This document shows, in pieces, positions 6,738-53,035 of a DNA stretch of 64,000 bases. The notes beneath the pieces are model-generated. The model had not been told where the DNA came from. It saw only the letters and a list, made by a program, of their open reading frames with translations, and made no database searches. Numbering within the stretch: the stretch's first letter is position 1; each line of letters starts with the position of its first letter. Position numbers and translations under genes: made by a program. Location: the NCBI GenBank assembly GCA_009693785.1, contig SHWP01000004.1, forward strand, positions 1 to 64,000, written 5' to 3'. The stretch comes from Rhodospirillaceae bacterium (lineage in GTDB: Bacteria; Pseudomonadota; Alphaproteobacteria; Rhodospirillales; Rhodospirillaceae).

Positions 6738-9700
6738 TTGGTTTTGCGCCCTTTTTACACCCCCTATCGCGGCCCCATCCGGCCCTCATTGCTGACCTGC
6801 TTGGCTGCCACCACCGCGCTGTGTTTGCCTGTCGTGCTGTCTCAGGGCGCGCTGGCTGGCCCTGTGACCATTAGCCGTTCAACCAATGCTGCCTTGCGCA
6901 CATCAACCGGCGACGGCCAAGGCCCCGGCAACATAACCATCGATGGCGACGGCAGCATTACCGTGTCCACCGGCGTGCCCCTGACTGTGGACAGCGACAA
7001 CGACGTCAGCGTTAACGGCACATTACACAATGATCAGAAAACCGCTGCGACGGGCTTATTGGTCAACACCAACGATAGCGCTGGGACGGGCCGCACCATC
7101 ACGACGAATATCACCCTTGGCGGCCTGATCAATGTTCCTGGCCCCGATAGCAGCGACACCAACTCCGCCAACAATGTCGGGCTACGCTTCAGCGGTACCG
7201 GCACCATGAAAGGCTCATTCACCGCCACGGCAGCAGGTAGCCAAATTTCGGTGGGCGGACGCGATGCCATCGGCATTGCCATCGACAGCATTATTGATGG
7301 CTCGGTGAATGCCGGTAGCGCTGTCACCCTGAACAACGGTGGCGGCTTTGGCATTCGGTCGACGCGTGCCGTCACTGGAAATTTCACGATTGGCGGAAAT
7401 ATTTCTGCCGCGGGGCAAGATTCGATTGGCGTGCTGCTGGGTGGCGGTATTGGAGGAGCCCTAACGTTTACCTCCGGCGTTTCCACAGGCTCTCAGGCCT
7501 TCTTCGATCAAAATAACCGCCGCGTCGAAGCGGTTACGGGCGGACCGGCCTTCTGGATATCAAGCGGTGTCGGGCAAGGCGTGCTGCTGGAAGGCAATCA
7601 ATTCACCTCGGCGCGCGAACAAACCGAAAACGTTCCCACGGACACCGCAACCGATTCCATTATAGCCGCTGAAGGCACCAACTTTGGTGCGTTACGGATT
7701 AGTCAAAACAGCGCTGCAGGAAACGGCGCCATCACCATCGGCCTGCGCCAAAATGGCGATGGCGACAGTTTGACCATGCGTGGCCGGGTGCAAACCTCGA
7801 CCTCGCGCAATGGCGTGGCAACCACTGCCATGGTCATTACTGGCACAAGCGCCACACAACGCACCGTACTGGTGGGTGGCATTCGTAACGCTGGTGGTAA
7901 CATCGATGCCGTCAGTTCCGATGCCACGGCCACGGGCTTGACCATCGGCGACTTTGCTAGCGTCCCCTACCTTATTAACACCGGCGATTTTCAGGTACGC
8001 GCCGCGGATTCCACCGAAAGCACGATTGGCGCGCCAGGGAGCGGCGGCGGCAACGCCATCGGCATCTCGGTCGCAGCGACGAGCGTGTTTAACTCACTGA
8101 TCAACACTGGCACCTTTTCGGTGGATGCACGTGGCAAAACATTCTCCGCTTCGGCTTTGATCGATAACTCGGGCACCCTCACCTATTTCGAGAACACCGG
8201 CACTTACCAGGCCGCTATCCGCGCGGGCTCTACGGGACGTGCGTTCGCCGCCGACCTCAGCCGGTCGCAACGCAACATCGACTTTCGCAACAGTGGAACG
8301 CTACGCGGTGACGTGACATTCGGGTCGGGTAACGACAGCTTCCTGTCGACCGGCGGCACTGTGACTGGCAATTATTCGTTTGGCGCGGGCAATGACACCG
8401 TGACCATCCGCAAGACAACATTCATCGGAGACATCGACTTAGGTACGGGTAATCATTCGGTTGTCATCGATACGCAAAGTAAATTCACCGGCGGCATTGC
8501 GCGGGGTGCTGGCACGAACAATGTGACGATCAGCAATTCTGATATCGTCATTACCGGGGGGCGGCGCATCGACGCCACCACGGCCAGCATTACCGGAACA
8601 TCCACATTAGACATCGCCATCGACGGCCAAAATGCGGCCCGCCCGCTGATCGAGGCCACAGGCCGGATCGTCATTGACCCCACCGTTAAGCTCACCACAC
8701 GCCTGGTGGGCTTAGTCACGCGAAGCTCGACGGTTACGATCATCAGCGCAGGCGATTTGCAGCTGGGCATTCCCATTGGGCAATTGGCCACTGCCTCGAC
8801 GTCCTACATTTACGGTTTTCAATACCGCATTGCTCCAACCAACCGGAACCAATTGTTGCTCGACGTCACCCGGCGCACAGCCACTCAGTTAGGTCTTGGC
8901 CCCAACATGGGTACGACATACGAAAGCTCGCTCGCTGCCCTGGCAACCGACAGCGAACTGTTCACCGAAATTGCCGACACCACCACAAAGGTGGCATTCG
9001 AAACTGCCGTGCAACAGCTGATGCCCGATGCCAGCGATGCAGCGCTGTACTCGGCGCTGCGCACCCAAAATTTGGCGTACGGCGTGATCCGCAACCGGTT
9101 AGGCAGTATTCCGCGCACCACTGGCCCATCGACAGGCACCGATTACTCGTCGTTCTGGGTGCAGCAGTTGGGATCTTACGGCAAGCGCGACGCCGAGGCC
9201 GAACAACCAGGCTACACGATGTATACGGTGGGTATTGCCACGGGCGCGGATGCGCAATTCACGCAATCCCTCAAGGGCGGCATGAGCATTTCGCAAGTGT
9301 GGAGCCTGCCCGACGAGAAGACCACCAACGACCGTCCGATGCGTATTTCATCTACGCAGGTCGATCTTTATGGCCGTCACCAAACCGGCCGGTCCTTCAC
9401 TCAAGCTATTTTCGGTGGATCATACGATACCTACCGCGCCGAACGTCGCGTGGTGATTGGCGGCCTGACGCGCGAGCCCAAAGGCAATTGGAAAGGCTAT
9501 CACATGGGCGGTGCCATCGACACCGGCACGCAAATCCGCCTTTCAGATTTGCGCCTTACGCCCTACTTGCGTGGATCGTACATGCGCACCCGCGAGAACG
9601 CCTATACCGAAACGGCTGGCGGTAATGGTGTCAATCTGGCTTACGACGCGCGCACGCAAGACTCGATGCGCGCGGGCGCCGGGTTGGTGGCGCAGCAGCG

Positions 9701-9977
9701 TTTCGTGATTTTCCAGGACGTCGGCATTGAAGCCGAGTTGCGCACCGACTTGGCCCGCGAACTCAGTTCCGACCCCGCCAAGATCACGGCTCGCTTTGCT
9801 TCAGGCGGCACCACCTTCACCCAACTTGGCCAATCGCCCGATAAGAACATTTTCGGCGTGGGCATCAGCTTGGGCGTGCGCGACATCTTCACGGCGTTTA
9901 GTATTGACTACGACGCCGAGAAAAGCGGCGACTTTTTAGGCCACACCCTGGCTGCGACGTTCAGGTTCCGGTTCTAG
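6738..9977 (+). CDS. autotransporter outer-membrane protein (type Va)
   Basis: A 1079-residue self-secreting surface protein. A signal peptide (LTCLAATTALCLPVVLSQGALA, about residues 19-40) leads into a long passenger rich in Gly, Thr, Asn and Ser, as expected of a beta-helix; strand-like repeats such as GSGNDSF, GAGNDTV and GTGNHSV recur near residues 530-580. The last roughly 280 residues form the autotransporter beta-barrel (FWVQQLGSYGKRD onwards) and end in the terminal aromatic signature FRFRF. The start is TTG at 6738 with GGATGGGAG seven bases upstream; no ATG fits. Its stop and the convergent methyltransferase stop lie in one palindrome (TAGCCGCGGCTA, 9975-9986). Likely adhesin; ligand unknown. 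Confidence 0.88.
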   Translation: MVLRPFYTPYRGPIRPSLLTCLAATTALCLPVVLSQGALAGPVTISRSTNAALRTSTGDGQGPGNITIDGDGSITVSTGVPLTVDSDNDVSVNGTLHNDQKTAATGLLVNTNDSAGTGRTITTNITLGGLINVPGPDSSDTNSANNVGLRFSGTGTMKGSFTATAAGSQISVGGRDAIGIAIDSIIDGSVNAGSAVTLNNGGGFGIRSTRAVTGNFTIGGNISAAGQDSIGVLLGGGIGGALTFTSGVSTGSQAFFDQNNRRVEAVTGGPAFWISSGVGQGVLLEGNQFTSAREQTENVPTDTATDSIIAAEGTNFGALRISQNSAAGNGAITIGLRQNGDGDSLTMRGRVQTSTSRNGVATTAMVITGTSATQRTVLVGGIRNAGGNIDAVSSDATATGLTIGDFASVPYLINTGDFQVRAADSTESTIGAPGSGGGNAIGISVAATSVFNSLINTGTFSVDARGKTFSASALIDNSGTLTYFENTGTYQAAIRAGSTGRAFAADLSRSQRNIDFRNSGTLRGDVTFGSGNDSFLSTGGTVTGNYSFGAGNDTVTIRKTTFIGDIDLGTGNHSVVIDTQSKFTGGIARGAGTNNVTISNSDIVITGGRRIDATTASITGTSTLDIAIDGQNAARPLIEATGRIVIDPTVKLTTRLVGLVTRSSTVTIISAGDLQLGIPIGQLATASTSYIYGFQYRIAPTNRNQLLLDVTRRTATQLGLGPNMGTTYESSLAALATDSELFTEIADTTTKVAFETAVQQLMPDASDAALYSALRTQNLAYGVIRNRLGSIPRTTGPSTGTDYSSFWVQQLGSYGKRDAEAEQPGYTMYTVGIATGADAQFTQSLKGGMSISQVWSLPDEKTTNDRPMRISSTQVDLYGRHQTGRSFTQAIFGGSYDTYRAERRVVIGGLTREPKGNWKGYHMGGAIDTGTQIRLSDLRLTPYLRGSYMRTRENAYTETAGGNGVNLAYDARTQDSMRAGAGLVAQQRFVIFQDVGIEAELRTDLARELSSDPAKITARFASGGTTFTQLGQSPDKNIFGVGISLGVRDIFTAFSIDYDAEKSGDFLGHTLAATFRFRF

Positions 9978-12370: not shown

Positions 12371-12379
12371 CCTGAACTG

Positions 12380-12457
12380 CCTGTTCCACCTGTTATAACA
12401 GGGTTTTTAACAGGCCGATGGCGGCCATGCTGCGGTCAGCCTATACTGCTGCGGTAT
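12380..12457 (+). repeat. structured dispersed repeat, copy 1
   Basis: Between two convergent genes lies CCTGTT (12380-12385), CCTGTT (12389-12394), AACAGG (12397-12402) and AACAGG (12409-12414), then after 28 bases a palindrome ATACTGC-T-GCGGTAT (12443-12457). The same order of elements, with compensating changes, recurs at 51374-51431. No coding content. Confidence 0.75.
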
Positions 12458-34827: not shown

Positions 34828-34945
34828 GTCCTTAAACTCCCATTGCCCGGCGACTATTCCATAGACCCAATCGCCGGAGCATATCTAGCCGACCGATGAG
34901 GCTTGGGATAGGTTGCCCCACCGGTTCACAAGGTTCGATCAACCC

Positions 34946-35722
34946 ATGCTCTATGCCCTGCTCTCGCCTGCCAAGAAACTCGACTTTGGCCCCGCACCGC
35001 ACAAGCTGAAGGCCACCAGCCCCGCGTTGCTGAGTGAAACCGCAGCCCTGGTCAAACGGGCCAAGAGCTATACCGCTGCTGATTTAAAGCGCCTCATGGA
35101 CCTTAGCCCCAAATTGGCCGAGGTGAATTACCAGCGCTTTCAAGCCTTCGATCCAAAAAACAACCAGGGTACCAAGTCCGCGATCTATGCCTTCAACGGC
35201 GATGTCTACATGGGCTTTGAGTCTAAGTCGCTGACCCCGGACGATATTGCATATGCGCAGTCCCACATTGGAATTCTCTCGGGGCTTTATGGCTTGTTGC
35301 GGCCGCTGGATGCCATTCAACCCTACCGCCTGGAAATGGGCACCAGTGTGAATACGCCACGCGGTGAAGACCTCTACGATTTCTGGCGCGAGACATTGAC
35401 AACGCACCTCGATGGTGTGATCGCGAAAATGAAAGACCCTGTCGTGGTCAATTTGGCTTCCGATGAATATTGGAGCGCGGTGGATACGAAGAAGCTCAAA
35501 GCTCCTGTGCTGCAATGCGTATTCAAAGAGGTCAAAGGCGGCCAGGCAAAGGTAATTAGTTTTCTGGCTAAGAAAGCGCGCGGCATGATGGCCCGCTACA
35601 TCGCGCAAGAACGCGTTGAAACACCCGAAGGTTTGAAAAAATTCACCGCTGGCGGTTACGCCTTCGATGCCAAGACCTCGACCGATAAAGTGTTCGTGTT
35701 TACAAGAAAAGCGAAATCATAA
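34946..35722 (+). CDS. yaaA: YaaA family protein (DUF328, peroxide stress)
   Basis: A 258-residue YaaA protein, of the family that lowers intracellular free iron damage during peroxide stress and binds DNA in E. coli. Characteristic motifs are LYALLSPAKKLDFG, the FNGDVYMGFESKSLT stretch, GILSGLYGLLRPLDAIQPYR and VVNLASDEYW, ending FAYDAKxS-like FDAKTSTDK. Start ATG 34946 matches the family start (MLxxLSPAK). Its stop directly abuts the convergent stop of the oligopeptide-binding protein gene. A distant relative sits in this window at 52224. Confidence 0.93.
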   Translation: MLYALLSPAKKLDFGPAPHKLKATSPALLSETAALVKRAKSYTAADLKRLMDLSPKLAEVNYQRFQAFDPKNNQGTKSAIYAFNGDVYMGFESKSLTPDDIAYAQSHIGILSGLYGLLRPLDAIQPYRLEMGTSVNTPRGEDLYDFWRETLTTHLDGVIAKMKDPVVVNLASDEYWSAVDTKKLKAPVLQCVFKEVKGGQAKVISFLAKKARGMMARYIAQERVETPEGLKKFTAGGYAFDAKTSTDKVFVFTRKAKS

Positions 35723-50313: not shown

Positions 50314-50383
50314 ACCTTGCGTGAAAAACGGCCCGCGCGCGATTTCAACTCCTCAGCGGGTCATCGACAACGGAGGGACGCGA

Positions 50384-51277
50384 ATGATGAAATCGATATT
50401 GAAATTGGGCATGGCGGTGGCCGCAGTGTGCGGCCTGTCAGCCAGCACCTTCGCCGCGACACTTGACCTCAATACGGCCGAGGGTATCGCCAAGGTGAAC
50501 CGTAAGTTTCAATGCTCATTGAAGGACGGCAAACAAGTCACCTACTACTGGCACGGCAGCGCCTTTGGCCGCGTCATGGGCATGGCCGACAAGTTATTGT
50601 TCAATGTCGAAGGCATGAACGCCCGTGCTTGCGTTACGGTCATGGACAAAGACCGGGGCTATGGTTACCGGCTCGTCTCGCGCGAGCTGTTGCTCTACAA
50701 GGACGCCAAGACGGGCGAATACCTCAAGACCTGGGATAACCCCTATACCGGCCAGAATATAAAAGTGCTGCACGTGGCCAATGACCCCGTCAACAGCCGC
50801 CCGACATTCGGCATTGGCCGCGATGGCAAGCCAATGAAGTTCACTGGAACCATTCTTGACGGCCACATGTGGCTGACCTCGACCGTGCCGCTGTTCTACC
50901 AAAACCCATTGGCGGGCGATTATCAAAAGAACATCGGCGGCATGTATCATGCCACCGAAATGTTCAACTTCTTCGCCAACGAAAAAGACATGCTGGACGG
51001 TAACAAGGACCAGGCCGACGTGAAGGTGGCTTGGCAGCGCATGTCCGACTGGTTGCCATGGATGGAAATGAGCGGCCGCGAAGGCTTGTTCTATGTCAGC
51101 ACCGCCGGGCGTATGCTGCGCAAGTTCGACGACATTCCCCAAGGCATGCGTGATGAGATTGCCAAGAACTACCCAATCTATGTCACACCGCCGCCCACGG
51201 ACGACGCCCGCCCCAACGAAACCAGCTGGACCTATTTCAAGAAAATGGTTCCGGTGGAAAAGAAAGCCGGCGAGTAA
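50384..51277 (+). CDS. exported DUF1838 protein
   Basis: A 297-residue exported protein: signal peptide (KSILKLGMAVAAVCGLSASTFAA) and the DUF1838 body with TAEGIAKVNRKFQCSLKDGK, TYYWHGSAFGRVMG, WDNPYTGQNIKVLHVANDP and a C-terminal WTYFKKMVPV. The family is uncharacterised and often lies beside MDR dehydrogenases and steroid-related genes. GGAGGG precedes ATG 50384 by about seven bases. It is the last gene of this run and is followed by a strong terminator. Confidence 0.83.
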   Translation: MMKSILKLGMAVAAVCGLSASTFAATLDLNTAEGIAKVNRKFQCSLKDGKQVTYYWHGSAFGRVMGMADKLLFNVEGMNARACVTVMDKDRGYGYRLVSRELLLYKDAKTGEYLKTWDNPYTGQNIKVLHVANDPVNSRPTFGIGRDGKPMKFTGTILDGHMWLTSTVPLFYQNPLAGDYQKNIGGMYHATEMFNFFANEKDMLDGNKDQADVKVAWQRMSDWLPWMEMSGREGLFYVSTAGRMLRKFDDIPQGMRDEIAKNYPIYVTPPPTDDARPNETSWTYFKKMVPVEKKAGE

Positions 51278-51301: not shown

Positions 51302-51334
51302 AAAGCCCCGTTCAATTCGAGCGGGGCTTTTTCT
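51302..51334 (+). terminator. intrinsic terminator after DUF1838
   Basis: AAAGCCCCG (51302-51310) pairs with CGGGGCTTT (51322-51330), 11-base loop, followed by TTTTTCTT. It lies 24 bases after the DUF1838 stop. Confidence 0.88.
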
Positions 51335-51373
51335 TGTCAGTCATCGGCAGGCCCGCCTGGTGAACGCGCGCCG

Positions 51374-51431
51374 CCTGTTCCGCCTGATATAACAGGACTT
51401 TTATCAGGCGATAATCATACCGCCGCGGTAT
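51374..51431 (+). repeat. structured dispersed repeat, copy 2
   Basis: CCTGTT (51374-51379), CCTGAT (51383-51388), AACAGG (51391-51396), ATCAGG (51403-51408), then after 8 bases ATACCGC-C-GCGGTAT (51417-51431) and TTTTT. Elements 1 with 3 and 2 with 4 are complementary, a crossing arrangement. Compared with copy 1 (12380), the second pair changed on both sides (CCTGTT/AACAGG to CCTGAT/ATCAGG), and the last palindrome changed too. Confidence 0.75.
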
Positions 51432-51519
51432 TTTTTATTCACGCCCGGTATGACGCGGCGCAGCTATTATTACACTAAGCTAGAGGAAAGCGCGCATAAA
51501 CTGAGGCGGGATACACAAG

Positions 51520-52227
51520 ATGGCAATTTCCGCGACAGGCAGGCTTGATAATCTCAGAGAATTCTACGGTCTGCTCGACCGTCTGGCAGAGAGGGTTGGC
51601 GGTGCGCGCACGCTTGCGCGATGTTCGGGCAAGGAGCAGTGGCCGACGCGGGGCGTCTACTTCTTCCTTGAGAATGGGGAAAAACGCACTGAATCCGGTT
51701 CGGGGATGCGGGTCGTTCGGGTGGGCACACATGCGCTCAAAGATGGCTCAAAGACCACACTTTGGAATAGGCTCTCCCAGCATAGGGGCGTTGTTCGAAG
51801 CGGAGGCGGCAACCATCGCGGCTCTGTCTTTCGCCTGCATGTCGGAGGGGCGCTATTAAGTAGGACGGCAGAACTTCAATGCCCCACATGGGCGACCGGT
51901 GGCACTGCGTCTGCGGAAGTGCGCGCGCAAGAGATTGAGATCGAGCGCATGGTGAGCAGCGTTATCGGCACTATGCCGTTTCTATGCCTCTCTATTGGGG
52001 ATGAGCCTGGCGCTCAAAGTGAGCGTGGATACATCGAGCGCAATTCCATCGCGCTGCTCAGCAACTTTCAAAAGGAGCCTCTTGACCCGCCCTCGACCCA
52101 CTGGCTTGGGCGGCACTGCCGCTCCGGTAAGGTACGCCTCTCTGGCCTTTGGAACTCAAATCACGTCGAAGAGGGCTATGACCCCGTGTTCCTTGAGCAC
52201 CTTCGCGCGCAGATCGAGGCGGCATGA
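51520..52227 (+). CDS. GIY-YIG nuclease-like protein
   Basis: A 235-residue protein whose N-terminal third fits the GIY-YIG fold: RGVYFFLENGEKR (GVY strand), VVRVGTHALKDGSKTTLW (the YIG-type strand here VRVGT), RLSQHRGV (Arg and His of the helix), then a region GNHRGSVFRLHVGGALL and a later Glu-bearing stretch. The C-terminal half (IERMVSSVIGTMPFLCLSIGDEP) is a domain I do not know. It starts at ATG 51520, after a strong terminator and the copy 2 repeat, and overlaps the next gene by four bases. Four AGG arginine codons are unlike neighbouring genes. Reaction and target unknown; a nuclease role is inference. Confidence 0.55.
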   Translation: MAISATGRLDNLREFYGLLDRLAERVGGARTLARCSGKEQWPTRGVYFFLENGEKRTESGSGMRVVRVGTHALKDGSKTTLWNRLSQHRGVVRSGGGNHRGSVFRLHVGGALLSRTAELQCPTWATGGTASAEVRAQEIEIERMVSSVIGTMPFLCLSIGDEPGAQSERGYIERNSIALLSNFQKEPLDPPSTHWLGRHCRSGKVRLSGLWNSNHVEEGYDPVFLEHLRAQIEAA

Positions 52228-52877
52228 AGATCGTTATTCAGTGCGCAGGCTCGAAAGATCCCCGAGCGGGACACCTGTGCGCAAGAGATGGTCGTTCGGT
52301 CGCATTCGTCGCAAACCCGAGCGCCTGCACGCCAAATGCTGCGGCGCTCTACGCGCGGTCGGATGATCCCTCCGATGTGCCCAGCCTCACTTGGCGGGAG
52401 CGGCTCATAAGGGAGGCGCATCCTAATCTCGTGCCCGCATGGCGCCTCTATAGCCGCCCGGCGTATTCGGGACTCGTCAGGAAATTTGGTGACAAGGATG
52501 TGTTCATACTCTCCGCCGGCTGGGGTCTCATCCGCGCGGATTTTCCGACGCCTCAATATGACATCACCTTTACTTCATCAGCAGAGCCGGGGATAAAACG
52601 AGGCAAGCGTGACACCTACGCGGACTTTTGCCAGCTCACGGCGGATGCCCATGAGCCGATTGTGTTCTTTGGCGGCAAGGACTACCTGCCTCTCTTCTGT
52701 GCACTCACGGCAAAAACACCCGGAGAGCGCATTGCCTTCTACAATTCCCAAACTCCACCGGTAGCGCCTGGATGCCGTCTGATACGATACCCCACGGCGG
52801 CCCGAACGAACTGGCACTATTCCTGCGTCGAGGATTTCCTTGCGGGCCGCCTTTCCCTCGAAGAGAGCAAATTATAA
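52224..52877 (+). CDS. YaaA/DUF6884-like protein
   Basis: A 217-residue protein of the YaaA-like superfamily (DUF6884-type). It opens IVIQCAGSKDPRAGHLC (CxGSK motif), has AALYARSDDP and the family's central turn FILSAGWGLIRADFPTPQYD, comparable with ILSGLYGLLRPLDAIQPYR of the window's own YaaA, followed by PIVFFGGKDYLPLF. Its ATG overlaps the GIY-YIG-like stop (ATGA), so the two are a translationally coupled pair. AGG arginine codons occur again. Such proteins occur in phage and mobile loci; DNA binding is the family's suspected property. Function unknown. Confidence 0.6.
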   Translation: MKIVIQCAGSKDPRAGHLCARDGRSVAFVANPSACTPNAAALYARSDDPSDVPSLTWRERLIREAHPNLVPAWRLYSRPAYSGLVRKFGDKDVFILSAGWGLIRADFPTPQYDITFTSSAEPGIKRGKRDTYADFCQLTADAHEPIVFFGGKDYLPLFCALTAKTPGERIAFYNSQTPPVAPGCRLIRYPTAARTNWHYSCVEDFLAGRLSLEESKL

Positions 52878-52928
52878 AATCGGCAAGCCCAAAGGAGTGG
52901 ACTAGGGGCACCATGAGCGAACACTTCG

Positions 52929-53010
52929 GTAATTACGGGGACACTATATTTAATTCAAACGCGCGCAGCGCGAGGTTGCACTGAATTAAATATAGTGTCC
53001 CCGTAATTAC
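52929..53010. mobile_element. 82-bp palindromic MITE-like element
   Basis: A perfect 29-bp inverted repeat (left arm 52929-52957, right arm 52982-53010; arms begin GTAATTACGGGGACACTAT) around a 24-base spacer that itself holds CGCGC-A-GCGCG. It lies after the YaaA-like gene and before the leftward fusion gene. The GGGGACACTATATTTAATTC core resembles the ends of dispersed palindromes handled by REP-associated tyrosine transposases. No transposase gene is in the window. Confidence 0.7.
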
Positions 53011-53035
53011 AATATTGGGTATTAAGCCCGCCCCA

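Follow-up and report, generated by a model that had tools for sequence, protein, structure and literature searches.

Two short overlapping genes, here termed A and B, in the genome of Rhodospirillaceae bacterium (assembly GCA_009693785.1) raise the question whether they form one functional unit and which task such a unit could have. They lie on the forward strand of the window, i.e. the whole stretch of 64,000 nucleotides that was analysed (contig SHWP01000004.1, positions 1 to 64,000). Gene A (51520-52227, + strand) encodes a protein of 235 amino acids of the PDC-M57B family, a probable GIY-YIG-like nuclease resembling R.Eco29kI. Gene B (52224-52877, + strand) encodes a protein of 217 amino acids, a long, DUF6884/DpdC-like variant of the YaaA superfamily. 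The ATGA at 52224-52227 (+ strand), which comprises the start codon of B and the stop codon of A, agrees with the four-base overlap noted in a preceding sequence-only reading, made without database searches, and all motifs quoted there (GVYFF, VRVGT and RLSQHRG; CAGSKD and LSAGWGLI) were present in the translations. The overlap suggests a translational coupling of A and B. An identical ATGA overlap was determined for 14 of 21 unfused pairs of A with a long B, including the window and based on the start codons as picked here.

The pairing of A and B is real, and the two are functionally linked. Applying one rule to 54 distinct A loci (same strand, at most 462 nt between the matched stretches), a YaaA-superfamily domain was found adjacent to A in 40 loci, downstream in 27 and upstream in 13, so that the pair is indeed conserved elsewhere, a point on which the sequence-only reading had made its proposal depend. 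Four further loci showed such a domain 1.1 to 6.3 kb off, and ten showed none in the examined stretch; the latter include the fragments L032 and L073 as well as L114 and L115 at contig edges, which were all counted as misses, and the other six are L035, L047, L057, L058, L068 and L117. Left out of the 54 were L002, L006 and L010 as duplicates of the window, L005 (=L050), L007 (=L047), L020 (=L114), L072 (=L046) and L079 (=L031), furthermore L078, which lies inside L090, and L113 and L155-L160 as repeats of other loci. Four of nine plasmid matches (H6-H9) also stand outside the locus set. The partner profile was obtained by iteration over these loci themselves, and a second one was made from three partners spotted by eye that the first had already found. 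An independent check is provided by Pfam DUF6884, which at E ≤ 1 gave matches in 20 of the 21 long B proteins and in short partners as well. DUF6884-type matches are scarce, amounting to one to three per genome in 15 genomes picked for holding the pair.

At four loci (L060, L069, L056 and L065), A and a YaaA-superfamily domain were found in one reading frame. The fused frame of L065 may result from a recent loss of a stop, since the relative L061 has separate genes. In the 40 largest clusters of neighbouring genes, taken from 41 loci, no other family reached this frequency next to A. The representatives of the families found in 24, 23 and 8 of these loci are shadow frames opposite A or B; other clusters comprise an ABC transporter (5 loci), a short-chain dehydrogenase (4 loci) and one further family (7 loci), and many clusters stem from four syntenic Chloroflexota loci. 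The protein distances computed for A and for long B are correlated, with r 0.64 (n=20) and none of 2000 permutations reaching this value, for which shared descent alone could suffice.

The partners of A belong to several branches, namely the long B, a short DUF6884 protein, DUF6884 combined with DUF7662 (L059 and L070) and a YaaA-like protein (L069), and in L041 and L053 the partner comprises a winged-helix and a weak YaaA match. L050 carries B-type genes on both sides of A. The fused DUF6884-like and DUF7662 partners are encoded at 6569-7738 in L059 and 4134-4916 in L070. An N-terminal domain ahead of DUF6884 seems to be common to L056 (1382-2050) and L054 (6659-7200), as judged by eye; the impression, likewise by eye, of a helix-hairpin-helix glycosylase was dropped, as Pfam gives no match for it. 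Beside the fused frame of L065, a frame of 392 amino acids (8745-9920, - strand) combines a YaaA match at 91-215 with a ParE-toxin match at 319-391. In L033, a Deinococcus plasmid (8114-8683), and in L072 (40-812), A either falls into two frames or occurs in one frame without its N-terminus. L117 (1435-2836, - strand) holds a divergent A homologue, matched by the other PDC-M57B model at 4.8e-62, that overlaps a DUF429 gene instead of a YaaA-type gene.

The sequence-only reading had taken the pairing of these two families to be undescribed. This did not hold, since the pair is already listed in PADLOC-DB 2.0.0 as candidate PDC-M57 with the proteins M57A and M57B. PDC stands for phage defence candidate (PMC11514479). 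The literature search found no paper on PDC-M57, and the combination of YaaA and GIY-YIG yielded nothing beyond, by title, work on iron-sulfur assembly in plants. In passages on DUF6884, two articles (PMC11701544, PMC11888242) do not mention GIY-YIG alongside it. No term for the pair was found in the main text of the DefensePredictor paper, and the 2021 PADLOC paper contains neither 'PDC' nor an account of how the PDC families were chosen. Compared to PDC-M57, A equals M57B, B falls into the same superfamily as M57A, and in both cases two proteins are paired. In contrast, M57A models a short DUF6884 protein (138 positions) that stands mostly upstream of A in the loci read, whereas the window has A first, followed by a B of 217 amino acids whose best PADLOC match is DpdC and not M57A. 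M57A matched B at 5.7e-4 over residues 87-156 only, and it matched four short partners elsewhere at 1e-34 to 3e-42. The window therefore represents a long-B, A-first variant, which is matched weakly by the M57A model.

For B, the kinship with YaaA and DUF6884 proposed in the sequence-only reading was supported by sequence matches and by YaaA as the best structural match. Pfam DUF6884 matched B at 6.1e-5 with 23.6 bits compared to a gathering score of 30, and because this lies below the cut-off, B is classed as a relative in the YaaA superfamily and not as a member of DUF6884. The best PADLOC match was DpdC of the Dpd 7-deazaguanine DNA modification system with 1.9e-7. This similarity covers only the core of the model, and B with 217 amino acids is shorter than the 299-319 positions of the best-matching DpdC models. 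The CxxxK motif (C7-K11) and the LSAGWG motif (residues 96-101) are strongly conserved among the long B proteins, with C7, L96, S97 and G101 in 21 of 21 and K11 and A98 in 20 of 21. In the AlphaFold2 model of B (pLDDT 94.4), a comparison with 998 chains by VIA ranked E. coli YaaA 5caj first (Z 7.4, 171 aligned residues, root-mean-square deviation (rmsd) 5.5), followed by the next chain at Z 5.2. Since this Z is below 8, it is read together with the sequence matches, and on both grounds B is predicted to have a YaaA-type fold. A common fold with CxxxK and LSAxxG motifs has been described for YaaA and DUF6884 by Pfam authors, who count YfjM of B. subtilis, a DUF6884 protein, as one of the proteins interacting with abasic and ribonucleotide lesions and who modelled a flipped base (PMC11701544). 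B shares this fold and both motifs with E. coli YaaA and YfjM, and it differs from E. coli YaaA by its shorter length (217 compared to about 260 amino acids) and its tie to a nuclease. A BLASTP comparison of B with the protein of a second, chromosomal YaaA gene in the window gave no significant similarity. This gene lies about 17 kb from B at 34913-35722 (+ strand), and its product of 269 amino acids matches E. coli YaaA 5caj at 1.8e-65.

Protein A matched PADLOC PDC-M57B at 4.1e-83 over residues 8-234. The window protein matched no Pfam family, 37 members of its family yielded two chance-level matches, each to one member, and none to a Pfam GIY-YIG family, and NCBIfam gave no match above cut-off. 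The AlphaFold2 model (pLDDT 93.8) shows the order strand-strand-helix-helix-(extra helix)-strand-helix. In the VIA comparison with 152 chains, two reached Z 2 and were listed as one entry, the type II GIY-YIG restriction enzyme R.Eco29kI (PF09517, 3mx4), with Z 4.0, an rmsd of 3.9 and 108 aligned residues; a Z below 8 may reflect a common arrangement, and the absence of other families from VIA lists does not exclude them. The catalytic residues of R.Eco29kI are Y49, Y76, R104, H108, E142 and N154, and mutants of Y49, R104, H108 and E142 retain 0 to about 2% of cleavage (PMC1952068). Paired by motif order and without coordinates, their counterparts in A are Y47, R67, R84, H88, E173 and D189. 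The motif order GxY, xVG, RxxxH and Glu-helix is the same in both proteins, and four of the six catalytic residues are identical. These four, Y47, R84, H88 and E173, which match Y49, R104, H108 and E142, form the putative active site and are each invariant in 37 of 37 A homologues. Accordingly, the GIY half (G45xY47), the helix with R84 and H88 and the catalytic E173 are present in order in all 37, and the step of four residues from Arg to His is the same in A and Eco29kI. Because the catalytic residues agree, the likeness of A to Eco29kI is raised above chance, and the GIY-YIG assignment of A is considered likely. A frame of 647 amino acids in L117 (G183) was considered as UvrC and dismissed, since its translation is a shadow frame opposite an apparent efflux-pump gene and provides no evidence.

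The sequence-only reading also raised the prospect of an empty site in related genomes. Seven stretches of relatives that carry the upstream gene were compared. In G387 (L087), the upstream gene, the terminator and the 3' end of the downstream gene are contiguous, with ~85 nt between the matched stretches, and in G386 (L084) the terminator is directly followed by an apparent remnant of the downstream gene. The cassette site is thus empty in two relatives of the same genus. In G388 (L083) and G389 (L089), other genes occupy the gap with about 2.0 and 1.6 kb; G390, G392 and G403, in which the downstream gene does not adjoin or the contig ends, leave the site undecided. The A profile found no A in four genomes of the same genus, G385-G388. 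The terminator of the window (51302-51336, + strand) consists of a 12-pair stem followed by a T-rich tail and belongs to the upstream gene (50321-51277). The empty site of both relatives carries a comparable terminator, with a terminator-like stem and T-run, judged by eye, directly ahead of the next conserved sequence in L087 and L084, so that the terminator represents the left boundary of the acquired stretch. The region of ~51337-53028 is a variable site: either the cassette arrived there, or other genomes have lost it.

The distribution is patchy. The A profile detected A in 6 of 317 genomes of the order, and a search with PDC-M57B gave 7 positive genomes among 385 from the class, the own genome counted in both cases. 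A scan of the genome collection yielded 36 loci, whose titles name Pseudomonadota, Chloroflexota, Armatimonadota, Planctomycetota, Actinomycetota, Synergistota, other phyla and archaea. Matches of A were also found in nine plasmid records and three viral contigs; neither A nor B matched any phage record at E ≤ 1e-5. Phyla are intermingled in the protein tree, which is poorly resolved and whose starred branches force just two changes for Pseudomonadota, and a transfer between phyla is judged likely rather than proven.

The codon usage of both genes is atypical as well. AGG accounts for 5 of the 24 arginine codons of A and for 2 of the 18 of B, compared to 41 of 1167 in 44 other open reading frames (ORFs) of the window, which were chosen by length (at least 200 amino acids) and are not annotated genes. 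The enrichment of AGG noted in the sequence-only reading is therefore confirmed, and in the synonymous-codon score A and B are both below all 44 ORFs. The GC content is ordinary with 0.591 for A and 0.585 for B, the mean of the window ORFs being 0.585.

Restriction genes stand beside the pair at some loci. Genes for a type I methyltransferase and PDC-S11 lie directly upstream of A in L042, a type I methyltransferase follows one gene downstream of the fused protein in L060, and an HNH nuclease that matches a type IV model comes next after A in L053. On two haloarchaeal plasmids, A has an annotated HNH endonuclease gene as its immediate neighbour on the opposite strand. The kinase gene of L047 matches the PD-T4-6/mad6 models. 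For a broader comparison, ORFs of 120-900 amino acids were taken by a simple picker from 37 loci, nearest to A first (355 ORFs), and 132 control ORFs of the same length range came from the window (50) and relatives. At E ≤ 1e-8, 140 of the neighbour ORFs, taken as a set, matched 120 PADLOC models (25 of them listed) compared to 26 models (25 listed) for the 132 control ORFs. The models matched by the control are mainly PD-T4-6 and mad6, but also mad2, mad3, mad8, C3a189, MkoA and RmrA. The enrichment of defence models near A is suggestive, bearing in mind that many models match one protein and that the control stems from other taxa.

Based on these data, we tentatively propose that A and B constitute a two-protein base-sensing restriction module of a modification-dependent, type IV-like kind, which is the most likely of the readings considered, with somewhat less than even prospects. 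B, with its YaaA-type fold, would scan DNA and flip out an unusual base, modified or damaged, in invading DNA, and A, as a GIY-YIG-type nuclease docked to B in a physical complex, would nick or cut at the flipped base. Such a system would act on DNA, could have an antiviral role and would be gained and lost between genomes. The defence role, which the sequence-only reading had offered as its own guess, is likewise one that we infer. A narrower version, in which B flips out and recognises a hypermodified base of phage DNA, a 7-deazaguanine of the kind handled by DpdC being one example, and guides A to this base for cutting, is clearly improbable.

A number of observations weigh against this proposal. 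The structure search divided: VIA returned 3mx4 for A and YaaA for B, whereas Foldseek gave nothing significant, with no match at E ≤ 0.001 in the PDB for B and none in the PDB or in BFVD for A. The GIY-YIG character of A proposed in the sequence-only reading is upheld by motif order and a weak fold match, and as a kinship in sequence it is only suggestive. The YIG half of A reads R67-V/I68-G69, so that the Tyr is missing (R in 36 of 37 homologues, L in 1 of 37), and D189 (36 of 37) stands where Eco29kI has Asn154. Because the Tyr of the YIG half is absent, A is called GIY-YIG-like and not filed as a member of the superfamily; it also has no Pfam-level similarity to R.Eco29kI, and unlike that enzyme it is partnered with a putative YaaA-fold protein. 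The hhalign comparison of A with the Eco29kI family was weak (P 0.02, 3 of 150 column shuffles as high), in a test of little power that gave just P 0.0065 for Eco29kI and UvrC, both GIY-YIG. Comparisons of hidden Markov models of A with UvrC and with small GIY-YIG proteins gave no signal, again with little power, and sequence profiles of the PDB yielded no credible match for A or B. Furthermore, A stands alone locally in L057, L058 and L068 and, including L047, lacks an adjacent intact partner in four loci; in the four haloarchaeal plasmid loci L034-L037, the partner is 2-6 kb away or elsewhere. L047 shows an apparent decayed start of B after A, the plasmid of L035 carries a DUF6884 gene elsewhere, and in the genome of L057 another copy of A is accompanied by a short partner (L090). 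Defence neighbours were pinned to single loci for few copies only (10 proteins, five loci inspected singly), and no restriction gene was recognised alongside the window's own copy among the matched models listed (25 of 26). Next to the partnerless A of L057 (8699-9097), a PaREP1-family protein was observed that recurs in the related Chloroflexota loci L044 and L071.

Other functions have to be weighed against the same data. Repair enzymes such as UvrC are found among the GIY-YIG nucleases, and A and B could be an accessory DNA-repair pair in which B finds oxidised or abasic sites and A incises them, the gain being stress tolerance and not immunity. The YaaA-like fold of B agrees with this, as a site-finding role has been suggested for YaaA and YfjM, the latter being among the interactors of abasic and ribonucleotide lesions (PMC11701544). 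In contrast, a repair pair would hardly be expected to be as patchy in order and class as determined here, to reside on plasmids (9 records) and to be missing at the same site in near relatives, and both the restriction genes beside some loci and the listing of the pair among phage-defence candidates in PADLOC-DB point away from it; we consider repair unlikely. The kinship with DpdC leads to a different possibility, namely a restriction-modification pair in which B edits host bases, as DpdC converts preQ0 to ADG in the Dpd system, and A cuts unmarked DNA. At E ≤ 1, each of the 21 long B proteins was matched by DpdC models, with 1.9e-7 as the best value, and for the partner in L059 a DpdC match of 1.1e-25 spans positions 4-238 of the 319 in the model. 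DpdC hydrolyses dPreQ0 to dADG according to the BREX paper (PMC12839542), and DUF6884 is named as a domain of DpdC in the GATOR-GC preprint (PMC11888242). However, B matches just a core of the DpdC models, and no writer-like family such as a transglycosylase recurs by A among the 40 largest clusters of 41 loci. For the 132 ORFs that include 50 of the window (E ≤ 1e-8, 120-900 amino acids), the models listed (25 of 26) comprised no Dpd model. Moreover, A persists with an apparently decayed B in L047, which a self-cutting enzyme should not allow, and a restriction-modification pair is therefore very unlikely.

Two short overlapping genes on plasmids and chromosomes could also be a toxin-antitoxin pair with A as nuclease toxin and B as antitoxin. 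Yet the gene order varies (27 downstream and 13 upstream of 40), fused frames exist, A occurs without an adjacent intact partner in L047, L057, L058 and L068, and the best structural match of B is a DNA-binding protein, so that hardly any weight is given to this explanation.

To our knowledge, no member of the YaaA/DUF6884/DpdC superfamily apart from DpdC has a settled biochemical role. The superfamily is widespread, and a nuclease partner that recurs, in either gene order and fused at four loci, indicates the job of at least one of its branches and renders it testable with two small proteins. Should B recognise modified bases, the pair would protect against phages that evade restriction by modifying their bases. 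In the narrower version given above, A and B would be an immune system with a YaaA-fold sensor, counteracting phages whose base modification defeats ordinary restriction enzymes.

The terminator, the structured repeat and the perfect-arm palindrome between which the sequence-only reading had placed the cassette all exist. Their interpretation as brackets of a mobile module could not be maintained. The repeat on the left (about 51348-51464, + strand) contains two stem-loops (51381-51410 and 51417-51431) and gave 29 further match rows in the own genome at E ≤ 0.001, corresponding to 28 separate places, some of them partial; one partial copy lies within the window at 12379-12415. It is a dispersed intergenic family of this genome and not specific to the cassette. 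The REP-like palindrome on the right (52929-53010, strandless) lies between convergent genes and consists of two 29-nt arms of 100% complementarity with a 24-nt spacer. Neither element was found by blastn in 53 other A loci, several of which have short flanks, and a perfect inverted repeat of at least 18 nt with a short spacer occurred in just 1 of these 53, far from its A gene. Because they are absent there, both brackets are local elements and not the ends of a shared module.

Allowing up to 3 mismatches, the window contains the 20-nt arm core of the palindrome two times, compared to 0.01 expected occurrences, and a 28-nt arm has no further copy in the own genome at up to 3 mismatches. Plasmids showed no match to the palindrome, and the own genome's Y1 transposase (L109) had no significant palindrome or repeat match nearby. 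In G417, a relative of the same order, similar arms were found in L110 (contig 25) at 1094-1122 and 1909-1935, where they flank a Y1-transposase match at 1501-1821. This is the layout of a REP-type element, and more palindrome-like matches were observed elsewhere in G417.

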